A stretch of DNA of 64,000 nt from Candidatus Chloroploca asiatica. GTDB taxonomy: Bacteria; Chloroflexota; Chloroflexia; Chloroflexales; Chloroflexaceae. The notes beneath the pieces were generated by a model. It saw only the letters and a list, made by a program, of their open reading frames with translations. It did not search any database and was not told the DNA's origin. Location of the stretch: the NCBI RefSeq assembly GCF_002532075.1, contig NZ_LYXE01000046.1:1-64000 (forward strand), given 5' to 3'. How positions within the stretch are numbered: position 1 is the first letter of the stretch; each line of letters opens with the position of its first letter. The position numbers and the translations under genes were made by a program. Shown piece after piece: positions 57,623 through 61,740 of this stretch.

Positions 57623-57666
57623 CGTTGACCCACAACACCAGTTACGCTTGATGTTGTGGGTCAACG
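57623..57666. terminator. Bidirectional terminator
   Basis: CGTTGACCCACAACA (57623-57637) pairs perfectly with 57652-57666. It lies between convergent genes and includes the stop codon of the minus-strand gene. Confidence 0.75.
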
Positions 57667-58377
57667 AGGCAACGATGCATAGGGATCGTCCTTTAGCAAC
57701 GCTTCTCCCTTGATCATCCACGAAACCCCGAAGGCCACAATAGCCAACGCTTCGAGCCAGAAGACCGGCGCAAGTGGCGTGATCGGGCTCTCGTCGGGGA
57801 GCAAGCTGACCGCTGCGATCGCGACAAGGCAACCAATAATGAGATAGCCACAGATCGTATAGACCTCGTTACGGCGCTCTTTTTCCTGCGTAGGTGTGCC
57901 CGCACCAGTCTGGCGAAAGAGCCCCAGGCAAAAGTAGGCCAGCGTAAAGAAGAAGATCGCCGCCGCGCCTAGATGCAACGCCCCGAGTACCTGCTCCGTC
58001 ATCGTCGGTGCAACCTCGGGCGTGGTAGGGAAGAACGCCACGCCAAGAGCGGCAAACCCCGCGACATTGCCCGCAGCGTTGTCACGCCAATCGTAGCCCT
58101 GGTACGCCCAGAGAAACACCGCGATCGCACAGAGGCTCCCCACAAACACGTCACGCATGGGGGTATGGTAATACGCACTGATCGACCCCTGCAACTGAGG
58201 CCCCTGCAGAAACACATTGCCCAGCGCGAGGATAAACGGCAGCAACACACCGATCGCCCCCACTGCCTTGCGCAGCGTCAGATACGAAATCAGCAACGGA
58301 CTCTCATACGCTGGTATCCGCTCAAGGTACGAACGCAAAAGCAGCCAATCACTATTCCTCAACTCAGGTTTCATCAC
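57661..58377 (-). CDS. Six-to-seven-helix membrane protein with SISAYYHT motif
   Basis: 238 residues; helices at about 38-58, 76-96, 102-120, 128-152, 175-195 and 205-222. The conserved-looking block GSISAYYHTPMRDVFVGSLC lies just before the second helix, and resembles a family of unnamed bacterial membrane proteins in which this motif is invariant. No catalytic motif can be named. Follows the Cache/channel gene on the same strand but is separated by a terminator. Confidence 0.75.
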   Translation of the reverse strand: MMKPELRNSDWLLLRSYLERIPAYESPLLISYLTLRKAVGAIGVLLPFILALGNVFLQGPQLQGSISAYYHTPMRDVFVGSLCAIAVFLWAYQGYDWRDNAAGNVAGFAALGVAFFPTTPEVAPTMTEQVLGALHLGAAAIFFFTLAYFCLGLFRQTGAGTPTQEKERRNEVYTICGYLIIGCLVAIAAVSLLPDESPITPLAPVFWLEALAIVAFGVSWMIKGEALLKDDPYASLPR

Positions 58378-58464: not shown

Positions 58465-60624
58465 CTAAACAAAGACAGCCAGCGTCGAAACAAGCATCGC
58501 AAACGCACAGACTGGCCAATAGAGCAACTTGGGCAACAGGTGATCGCCATAGGTGATCAGCGGCAGGTTTGGCGCACGCACCAGCAAAAAAGCATCGAGG
58601 ATCACCGCAACAACGATCAGATAGAGCAGCAGATAGAGGTGTTCGAGATAGGTGATGCCAATCGCGGCCACATTTTCACGCAACGCAGTATGCGCGATCG
58701 CAATAACGAAGAAGAGGGCCGCCGCATAACTGAGCGCCGCCACAAGATCCTGGCGGTCACTGATCTGGCGATCCGACATCAAAAAGGCAAACACGAGCAC
58801 CAGCGTCACCATCCCGGGGAGCAAATAGGCAATGAAGGGACCAACCACTTGGCGCTGCATCGTCAACGTGAAAAAGAGTTCGGGCGGAGCAAGCCGGTCA
58901 GCCCGCCGACTGAGGCCCAGGCTCGCACCTTCTTTCCGCTCACGCAGCGTAAAATAACTGTTTTCGAGCTGCCACTGGTTGAGCCAGATCGCCCCATCGA
59001 CCCCTGGCAGAGCCGAGGGCCGGAGCAATGGATAGGCTTCGAGATCAGGCGTTAGCATAACATTCTCATCGAGCTCGGCAGGTTGCAACGAGACCTCAAC
59101 CTTGCGGGTATCAAACGGAAAGCGCACCGGATCAAAGCGCTGCTGCAGCACAATGCCAACCCGCCAGACGATCAACTCGCCATCGCCATCGCGCACCCGT
59201 GCCGCCTCCTCAATTGGCAGCAACTCACCAATCGTCTGGTACAACGCAAACCCGCGTACAACCTCTTCAGGGATCGTATCGGCATACCACTGCCAGATGA
59301 TCGCATTCAGCGTCACCGTCGTCGGCGTCGGAAACTGCAATGCAGTCAACTCAATCCCCGTCGGCACCACAAACGGCTGCTGGTCGCCATTCAGTTCCTC
59401 GCGGTAGCGCTCAACGATCCGCTCAACCGTCGCACGGCTTGTCAGCGCAAGGCTCGCCTGGTCACGTGTCAGCGCACTGAGCCACCATGTCAACCCAATC
59501 AACCCGACACAAACCCCGGTAAAGACCAGCGCCACAAGCCAGAGTTCACGCCGCCCGCCATGTTCCACCCGCACCGCCAGTGCGGTCAGCAGCACGATGA
59601 GACCACCCGAGGTCAGCCCAAGCGCCACAAGATTGCGGAGGGTCGCCTCGGCGGGGGGGGCCATATCCGCGGCATCGATCACCACCCCGACCACTCCGCC
59701 ATTTGCCTCGAGTGGCACCAGAAAAAACCAGGCCTGGTGCCCGGTAATCGCATCAGGTTGCTGGAGCTCAACCACCTCACCGGCGAGCGCACGGCGAACC
59801 GCAGCCTGCACCGTTGCATCATAGCCACTCGTCGGGTCAAAAATCGAACGGCGGGCCACAAACCGCACATCAGGATGGCTCAAAAACATCCCGTCAGCCG
59901 ACAAAATAAACCCATACCCACGGCCCCCGAGCTCAAGACGCGCCATCAACTGGCGCATACCCCGGGTCGAAAAATCAACCGTCACCAACCCGGCGGGCGC
60001 AGCATCAGCGGGGTCAAGCCGGGCAAAAGGCATCCCATACTCAATCAACACCTTGGCCGCGCCCGTTGCCAGAAACGGCTCACTCCACTGCGCACCCTCA
60101 CGGATCGGATAATAGTACCAACCCGTCGCCGGCGCACCGGGCTCATCCTGTGGTGGCAGCGTATAATCATAGGTCGCGCCCTCGAGCAGACCAATGCCCT
60201 GATTCGCATCGCGAAACGCATAGACCTGGGTCAAACGGAGGGCCGGATCGCACGCAAAGGGCTCACAGGTCACTGCAACCCCATCAAGCTCGGGCTCAGC
60301 AGCGAGGAGAGCCTGGAGACGTTCAGGCACCTCGGCATAGGCAAGCGCCCCCGACGCAAGATCATCGCCAAGCGCGATCGCAAGCGCCTGCGCATCCAGC
60401 AGCGCCGCATCAATCGTCGCCGTCGCCGCCTGCGCCTCAGCGCGTGCCGTCTCAAGCGCAGTGGCACTCAACTGTGCCCGCACCACCAGAAAACGGATCG
60501 CCAGAAAGAGCGTCAACAAGACCAGCACCAGCGTGCTACCGAGCAACACCCAGCGCACCCGCCGGGCCACCGCCGCATCCCGGGACGGCGACACCTCAAA
60601 CTGACCGGGCTGCAAACGAAACAT
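58465..60624 (-). CDS. Cache-domain protein fused to a pentameric ligand-gated ion channel-like core
   Basis: 719 residues. Helix 25-47; extracytoplasmic dCache-like sensor about 50-325; helices 332-352 and 361-383 joined by a basic loop (RVEHGGRRE, cytoplasmic); beta-rich extracytoplasmic domain about 390-590 with the channel-family signature FPFDTRKVEVSL (502-513), then GAIWLNQWQLENS; and four helices 597-615, 626-648, 659-682, 697-718. The segment LTMQRQVVGPFIAYLLPGM before helix 1 matches the pre-M1/M1 pattern of prokaryotic channels (R-x-x-x-x-Y-x-P), and helices 2-4 match M2-M4 in length, spacing and the ITYLEHLYLLLYL M3 start. The extracytoplasmic position and even helix number agree. 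An extended -10 (60672-60677) lies upstream. An alternative is a DUF4436-like protein, which has the PFD motif but only three C-terminal helices. Confidence 0.75.
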   Translation of the reverse strand: MFRLQPGQFEVSPSRDAAVARRVRWVLLGSTLVLVLLTLFLAIRFLVVRAQLSATALETARAEAQAATATIDAALLDAQALAIALGDDLASGALAYAEVPERLQALLAAEPELDGVAVTCEPFACDPALRLTQVYAFRDANQGIGLLEGATYDYTLPPQDEPGAPATGWYYYPIREGAQWSEPFLATGAAKVLIEYGMPFARLDPADAAPAGLVTVDFSTRGMRQLMARLELGGRGYGFILSADGMFLSHPDVRFVARRSIFDPTSGYDATVQAAVRRALAGEVVELQQPDAITGHQAWFFLVPLEANGGVVGVVIDAADMAPPAEATLRNLVALGLTSGGLIVLLTALAVRVEHGGRRELWLVALVFTGVCVGLIGLTWWLSALTRDQASLALTSRATVERIVERYREELNGDQQPFVVPTGIELTALQFPTPTTVTLNAIIWQWYADTIPEEVVRGFALYQTIGELLPIEEAARVRDGDGELIVWRVGIVLQQRFDPVRFPFDTRKVEVSLQPAELDENVMLTPDLEAYPLLRPSALPGVDGAIWLNQWQLENSYFTLRERKEGASLGLSRRADRLAPPELFFTLTMQRQVVGPFIAYLLPGMVTLVLVFAFLMSDRQISDRQDLVAALSYAAALFFVIAIAHTALRENVAAIGITYLEHLYLLLYLIVVAVILDAFLLVRAPNLPLITYGDHLLPKLLYWPVCAFAMLVSTLAVFV

Positions 60625-60671
60625 GTACCACCCTCATCAACAACCACCCGCTTCGGCAACGCACCTGCTAG

Positions 60672-60677
60672 AGTATA
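60672..60677 (-). promoter_or_regulatory. Extended -10 promoter of the Cache/channel gene
   Basis: TGG-TATACT on the minus strand, 47 bases upstream of the start codon, with GAGGGTGG as ribosome site. Confidence 0.5.
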
Positions 60678-60722
60678 CCATTGCCTTGGGGTGAGGGTGG
60701 GGATGAGGGGCGAGGGCAAGAA

Positions 60723-60761
60723 CCGTGGGTATGCTGGCCGTTTTTGCCAGCACACCCACGG
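60723..60761 (-). terminator. Terminator after the Rpn-like gene
   Basis: CCGTGGGTATGCTGGC (60723-60738) and GCCAGCACACCCACGG (60746-60761) pair with one mismatch around a loop containing five T. Confidence 0.8.
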
Positions 60762-60768
60762 GTTTAGC

Positions 60769-61740
60769 TCACCCCTGCTCCGATCCCGCCGTCGGGTCAT
60801 TCGTTGTGCGACGGCTCACTTCCGCCTTCAAGGCCGCAAAGGTTTCCGGGGTGATACCCGTTGCTTGGGTGATGATCTGCCACGGGGTACCTGCGGCTAA
60901 CAATTGCGCGATCACCTCAAGCTTGCCCTCCTGTCGGCCTTCTTGCAAGCCCTTTTGCAAGCCTTCCTCGATCAATTCTTCCGCATAGGTCACAAGATCA
61001 CCTCCTACCTGCATCTGATGCTCTTCCACCGCCTCCAGCACCTCCAGCACCAGCGCCCGCTCTTGGGTCGCAAAGAGGTACAGAAAAAAGGTACTGTGCG
61101 CGTCGGTGCCTCCTACGGCCACCAGTTCGGCGAGCAAGGGCACCGCCTGAGCCAGCACCGCCTGGGCCTGCGCCCTCATCGCTGCCATGAGCAGGAGTTG
61201 CGCAATCTGCCCCTTCAGCCCGCCCACCACCGCCGTCGGCGGCATCCCCGACTGGTCAATCAGAAGGTGGCGCACGTGCGGCGTCAGCGTCTCGTCCCAC
61301 CCTGGCACCGTTGGAAAGAGATCCGCCAGGTCGGTCGAATACGTCCAGGCACTGCGCCCTTGATAGAAGACCACCGGGATAATGGGGCGTAACTGCTGTT
61401 GTTTCGGCTCAGCCTTGAACGATTCGTCCCAGATCCGCCCCATGTAGTTCAGCAAGCGCAAGCGCATCCAGCGATCTGGTGTCGATTGATGCTCGAATAA
61501 GAGATAGAGATGCAATGGCTCTGCCGTTGCTTGCACCTGTACCGTATAGAGCAGATCCGACTCGCTCTCCTGCAACGCCGGATCGACAAAGCTCGTCTCT
61601 TCCAAGCGCAGGGTGGCCCAATCCAGCGCCTGAGCCAATGTCGGCGGCAGATGTGCCTCGAGCAAGCGCTGCGCCTCGCCAAGATCGCGAAACACGGTGC
61701 GAAACAGGGTATCGTGGGGATGTTGAATGATCCGGTGCAT
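60769..61740 (-). CDS. Rpn-family (RpnA-like) PD-(D/E)XK nuclease
   Basis: 323 residues. [37 protein letters not shown] and [23 protein letters not shown] are the conserved blocks of the recombination-promoting nuclease (PF04754) family, with E/D-rich strands and the EHQS core of the active site. RpnA-type proteins cleave DNA and were previously called putative transposases. The C-terminal quarter is the typical low-complexity [17 protein letters not shown] tail. A duplicated copy of its first part is found 698 bases upstream, beyond an acetyltransferase gene. Confidence 0.9.

Follow-up and report, generated by a model that had tools for sequence, protein, structure and literature searches.

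The locus examined here lies in a window of 64,000 nucleotides from Candidatus Chloroploca asiatica, the whole stretch of DNA that was analyzed, and it raises the question of whether a sensory domain of the Cache type has been joined in one polypeptide to a channel of the pentameric ligand-gated ion channel (pLGIC) superfamily. pLGICs are the ion channels behind fast nerve signaling, and the module described here appears to be a distant relative of them. The initial annotation of this DNA had proposed a single minus-strand gene encoding a dCache-like domain, a two-helix hairpin, and a pLGIC-like core, and the corresponding ORF of 719 amino acids is found at 58465..60624 on the minus strand, beginning with an ATG start codon. 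We interpret the protein as a divergent pLGIC (Pro-loop receptor) with a fused sensor, a reading to which a probability of about 0.7 may be attached on the basis of the sequence comparisons described below.

The domain order is TM1, dCache, TM2, TM3, beta ectodomain, and M1 to M4, with the transmembrane (TM) segments called by hydropathy, and hydropathy gives the same TM set in the full-length orthologues and in a Vibrio protein. TM1 (residues 22 to 54; 60463..60561, minus strand, as are all of the following features) is associated with a basic N terminus that is predicted to be cytoplasmic, and the dCache sensor (about residues 55 to 325; 59650..60462), placed by profile and Foldseek matches, is predicted to be periplasmic. 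The hairpin consists of TM2 (residues 331 to 353; 59566..59634) and TM3 (residues 358 to 386; 59467..59553), the second of which matches the N-terminal TM segment of an Acaryochloris protein. The pLGIC-type beta ectodomain (about residues 419 to 592; 58849..59370) was placed by hhalign against GLIC, the proton-gated channel of Gloeobacter (PDB 3eam and 4hfi), and a pLGIC-like set. It carries the landmark FPFDTRKVEVSL at residues 502 to 513, and it is without any cysteine, so that the ectodomain cysteine loop is absent, as had been noted from the letters. The pre-M1/M1 pattern and the four C-terminal helices of the initial annotation are likewise recovered from hydropathy and family conservation, with the pre-M1 residue R591 preceding M1 (about residues 592 to 619, with a Pro603 kink; 58768..58848), M2 as the putative pore helix (about residues 625 to 649; 58678..58749) directly preceded by the SDRQDL stretch, M3 (about residues 652 to 691, core 658 to 684, with an invariant E661; 58573..58653), and M4 (residues 699 to 719, with the motif Kxx[FY]WP; 58468..58530). 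The predicted topology, in which the N terminus and the hairpin turn lie inside and the dCache domain, the ectodomain, and the C terminus lie outside, is coherent with that of known pLGICs.

The gene, a dCache-pLGIC-like fusion over its full length, is conserved in Candidatus Chloroploca and in two genera related to it, where it evolves under purifying selection. Its orthologues are full-length and 38 to 97% identical to the protein, and the channel part shows 97% identity in Candidatus Chloroploca mongolica and 92% in Chloroploca sp. Khr17, which belong to the same genus as the source. Against two Chloroploca genomes, dN/dS is 0.13 to 0.14 for the whole gene, 0.07 to 0.10 for M1 to M4, and 0.18 to 0.20 for the dCache domain, the highest of the protein's parts. 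Orthologues were found in three genera of only one family when about 400 Chloroflexota genomes from across the phylum and the whole family were searched. An Arg/His/Pro-rich antisense ORF of 605 amino acids (59083..60900, plus strand) overlaps the channel gene; the selection pattern favors the minus-strand frame over it, and it is probably a high-GC artefact. One orthologue (L007/L013; G020:C12, about 147013 to 147022) appears as two overlapping frames split near the start of M3, reflecting either a disrupted gene or an error in sequencing, and at another locus (L010, in G034) the dCache part alone is present and the frame then ends in unrelated sequence, reflecting either a truncation or an assembly break.

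No conserved operon was found around the channel gene. A DUF998-like membrane protein, with a Pfam match below the cut-off, is encoded downstream on the same strand (57661..58377), and a DUF998-like gene also follows the orthologue in Khr17, but it was not found beside the orthologue in Chloroploca mongolica (M50-1 locus), and it was rejected as a conserved operon partner for this reason. A YhgA-like putative transposase (60769..61740) lies upstream. In genus g15, a membrane protein resembling the small subunit of TRAP transporters (DctQ-like, judged by eye) adjoins the orthologue (L008, 4093..4860; L009, 4080..4886).

The assignment of the N-terminal sensor to the dCache (tandem PDC) fold is supported by both profile and structure matches. 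Profile A1 matches the histidine-kinase sensor 3lib at 1.8e-11 and PctB at 1.1e-10 in the PDB, with PctB and PctA entries ranging from 1e-10 to 4e-10. In a partial AlphaFold model of the sensor, only the second lobe is confident, and a Foldseek search with this model gives 3lib at 9.5e-6 (prob 1.00) and also PacA, PctA, Mlp37, and alpha2-delta. The Pfam dCache_1 match, at 0.0033, is below the family cut-off. The pocket signature W169, Y170, F184, D217, and T167 (59974..60126), read from an alignment with PctA, is invariant in the orthologues, and W169, Y170, F184, and D217 are equivalent to PctA W128, Y129, Y144, and D173. The dCache_1AA motif of amino-acid receptors comprises an Arg at the PctA R126 position together with W128, Y129, and D173, and Arg126 of PctA holds the amino-acid carboxylate (PMC10104139). 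W169, Y170, and D217 of this motif are kept here, and the position of the Arg is occupied by Thr167 in 7/7 aligned orthologues. Amino acids had been put forward as the ligand, but gating by them is not specifically supported because the carboxylate-binding Arg is replaced, and that part of the initial annotation is weakened. The W/Y pair and the pocket Asp are common to amino-acid and amine dCache receptors (PMC10104139), and the pocket is compatible with an amine-like ligand. The protein thus shares its fold and its W/Y and Asp pocket positions, though not the motif Arg, with the dCache receptors mmHK1S-Z3 (3lib), PctA/PctB, PacA, and alpha2-delta, and its output part is a channel-type module in place of an MCP or a kinase.

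The relationship of this module to pLGICs is apparent in individual residues. Six of the seven most conserved pLGIC positions, taken from the superfamily-conserved positions in Table 1 of Jaiteh et al. (2016), are kept in all nine family members, with GLIC F/Y119, P120, D122, W160, R192, and P204 corresponding to F502, P503, D505, W551, R591, and P603. The Pro-loop motif F502-P503-F504-D505 (59110..59121) represents the [F/Y]PxD motif of the beta6-beta7 loop, the Pro of which is invariant across the superfamily (Jaiteh et al. 2016), and in the family its Pro and Asp are invariant (9/9 members) and its first position is always Phe or Tyr. The beta9 residue W551, which hhalign aligns to GLIC W160, is present in every member, as are the pre-M1 Arg591 (58852..58854) and P603, which lie 12 residues apart like R192 and P204 of GLIC. 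In known pLGICs, the pre-M1 Arg is the salt-bridge partner of the Pro-loop Asp, and this pair couples the ectodomain to the membrane domain. The Pro of the M2-M3 loop is missing, V652 (V, A, I, or L among the members) standing at this site in the ungapped register, and the Acaryochloris member alone has a Pro near it, one residue off. This Pro occurs in 88% of the superfamily and so is not universal (Jaiteh et al. 2016).

Few parts of the protein are as well conserved as M2. Its L631, F638, H645, and R649 are invariant, and their spacing of 7, 7, and 4 equals that between positions 2', 9', 16', and 20' of the pore. This prime numbering was derived by matching the beginning of M3 to GLIC without gaps, and the register may shift by one or two because MAFFT and hhalign put gaps there. 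Across the superfamily, 0' is basic in 79% and 9' is Leu in 75% and Phe in 13% (Jaiteh et al. 2016). In the inferred register, 9' is Phe638, which fits, and 0' is Ala, Ser, Glu, or Thr rather than a basic residue; hydrophobic residues occupy positions 2', 6', 9', and 13' of the inferred pore face (L2', A6', F9', and A13'), whereas GLIC is polar at 2' and 6'. Because the pore face is hydrophobic and the basic 0' is missing, a receptor that has the pLGIC fold but does not conduct, and that would pass its signal on by a change in conformation or via a partner, is a serious rival, and the lack of a polar ring at 2' or 6' and the lost M2-M3 Pro also speak for it. However, M2 is highly conserved with an invariant His and Arg on the inferred lumen face, M1 to M4 have the low dN/dS given above, the cytoplasmic side has short loops only and no output domain, and no partner gene is conserved, the DUF998-like neighbor included. 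Loss of conduction is unlikely on balance, and a ligand-responsive, homopentameric channel regulated by the dCache domain is the most likely interpretation of the sequence.

The kinship of the channel module was also assessed with profiles. The profile searches proposed in the initial annotation had a divided outcome: a dCache model was matched below the Pfam cut-off, as described above, and Neur_chan_LBD and Neur_chan_memb gave no match to the protein even at E 10, the C-terminal module being unmatched by any Pfam or NCBIfam model. In hhalign, the nine-member family alignment (A2) matched the single GLIC sequence, which agrees with the PDB chains end to end, with a prob of 85 and an E value of 6e-6 from beta1 into M1, pairing beta1 (VPTGIEL/VNTGIYL), the FPFD loop, the beta9 Trp, and pre-M1/M1. 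The match to ELIC alone was weak (E 0.027). Against four canonical-type pLGIC sequences, A2 scored 65.6, and against seven pLGIC-like sequences, obtained by adding to these four the channel modules of three PBP-fused proteins of the bacterial family to which the source belongs, it scored 108.3 (prob 98.3; 251 columns, beta1 to M3). The highest decoy scores were 18 for reversed profiles, 24 for 120 column-shuffled profiles, and 25 for unrelated ORFs. The C-terminal module is homologous to pLGICs at the level of sequence profiles, and the proposed fusion of a dCache domain to a pLGIC-type core is supported, the core by both the decoy-controlled alignments and the conserved-residue comparison.

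A module of unrelated origin, consisting of a beta-domain and four helices in which FPFD and the spacing arose by chance, is very unlikely in view of these scores, which lie far above every decoy, and of the invariant P503, D505, W551, R591, and P603, all of which fall in pLGIC-equivalent columns. In its favor, no curated pLGIC model recognizes the module, and the AlphaFold2 monomer of the channel module has a pLDDT of 34 and is unusable, giving the module no structural support; the poor model is due to a lack of alignment depth, the alignment being three near-identical sequences. DUF4436 (Pfam PF14494), which the initial annotation had named together with the lack of any HHpred-type channel match as a ground for abandoning the proposal, was rejected as the identity of this module, with no match at E 10 and no occurrence in 151 Chloroflexota genomes.

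Relatives of the channel module were found outside Chloroflexota. A plasmid protein of Acaryochloris marina (WP_012166950.1; L024, 4818..6278) matches the channel family at 8e-30 and has the part from TM3 through the ectodomain to M1 to M4 only, without Cache, with family profile position 356 aligning to its residue 4. This protein has a long C-terminal tail after M4, and its plasmid, pREC1, is typed as conjugative. A protein on a megaplasmid of Vibrio sp. THAF191d matches at 2e-19 and has the complete order of TM, dCache, TM, TM, ectodomain, and four TM segments, and profile A1 matches its sensor and channel parts in order (107 and 127 bits). Since the Acaryochloris protein begins with the counterpart of TM3 and lacks a Cache domain, TM3 was probably the original membrane anchor of the channel module, and the hairpin may mark the point at which a TM-dCache-TM front end was joined to it. 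That the Chloroploca protein is a conventional chemoreceptor or kinase front end of the dCache type, with a C terminus that merely anchors it in the membrane while another protein carries the signal, is barely credible, for although the dCache domain is the sole part recognized by database searches, Pfam and NCBIfam searches found no kinase, MCP, HAMP, or cyclase domain in the protein, and the C-terminal part is better conserved than the dCache domain and stands alone in Acaryochloris.

The family profile search of viral contigs yielded no relative, nor did the phage collection searched, and tblastn searches of plasmids with GLIC and ELIC gave one Legionella relative only. A Neur_chan_LBD search of 201 Chloroflexota genomes gave no match, but the control genomes were equally silent, so this result is uninformative. 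Three proteins of Chloroflexales (L036, 91..2466, in G024; L038 and L039, in G002) combine in one chain a PBP of the Peripla_BP_6 type with a pLGIC-like ectodomain and four helices, and L036 matches Neur_chan_LBD only at E 0.18. G002, which is of the source genus, carries both the PBP-fused and the Cache-fused types. A stand-alone pLGIC-like protein (L040, 1216..2373, minus strand, in G424) has an apparent lipoprotein signal (LVLSGC), and its ectodomain may be lipid anchored before M1.

A study by Tasneem et al. (2004; PMC549065) described prokaryotic ligand-gated ion channels with N-terminal MCP-N and Cache or PBP-I domains, the MCP-N/Cache-fused type in Methanosarcina, Cytophaga, and Microbulbifer, and suggested a role of sensor-fused channels in chemoreception. 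The class of Cache-fused pLGICs is therefore not new, a precedent that the initial annotation did not mention, and no report of one later than 2004 was found in the literature searched. The MCP-N/Cache proteins share with the present one a Cache-type sensor located N-terminal to a pLGIC ectodomain and a four-TM channel. They are described as having extra domains between the signal peptide and the ectodomain, with no mention of a hairpin, whereas here the dCache domain lies between TM1 and TM2 and the ectodomain follows TM3, which sets this protein apart from them as they are described. The PBP-I-fused pLGICs (Tasneem et al. 2004; L036, L038, and L039) also combine a periplasmic small-molecule sensor with a pLGIC-like core, but the three from Chloroflexales carry Peripla_BP_6 in place of dCache, and hydropathy shows no hairpin linking their sensor to the ectodomain. 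GLIC has the alignable region from beta1 into M1, the four helices, [F/Y]PxD, the beta9 Trp, the pre-M1 Arg, and the M1 Pro in common with the present module, and the RxxFP of its M4 is resembled by Kxx[FY]WP; it differs in lacking an N-terminal sensor and in having polar M2 2' and 6' residues, the M2-M3 Pro, and the loop A WIPE, whereas here loop A WxP is missing and the beta2-beta6 region is shorter. DeCLIC, another pLGIC from a prokaryote, likewise has an N-terminal regulatory domain in the periplasm, but that domain consists of two jelly-roll calcium-binding lobes rather than a dCache fold. What looks new is a Pfam-invisible subfamily in which a membrane hairpin separates the sensor from the ectodomain, giving seven TM segments per subunit, and in which M2 is unusual, and the hairpin form appears to be an unannotated variant of the sensor-channel fusion.

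The domain order suggests a complete dCache receptor front end (TM1-dCache-TM2) that a short cytoplasmic turn would link to a channel module with its own N-terminal membrane anchor, TM3, followed by the pLGIC ectodomain and M1 to M4. The channel module would form a homopentamer with a pore lined by M2. A periplasmic small molecule would bind the dCache domain, the movement of which could reach the ectodomain and the coupling zone of Asp505 and Arg591 either through TM2 and TM3 or by direct contact, opening a hydrophobic gate near Phe638, below the His645 and Arg649 rings, with ion flux as the output. The architecture suggests gating by a Cache ligand. The chances are about even that the family constitutes an unrecognized Pro-loop subfamily with seven TM segments per subunit (35 per pentamer), in which the dCache domain is coupled through the TM hairpin, down one helix and up the next, and the pore rings of Leu, Phe, His, and Arg are unlike those of characterized pLGICs.

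These results bear on the question of how N-terminal sensors regulate prokaryotic pLGICs, for which DeCLIC was, according to a 2025 paper, still the only pLGIC with a partly characterized N-terminal domain. In a fusion of dCache with a pLGIC core, the regulator could be identified independently, by thermal-shift and calorimetry ligand screens, and then tested for gating. The occurrence of the module in green filamentous phototrophs, on a cyanobacterial plasmid, and on a Vibrio megaplasmid indicates that pLGICs exist outside the reach of Pfam, and the architecture of the Chloroploca protein suggests that a small molecule outside the cell probably opens an ion pore through a common nutrient-sensing domain.
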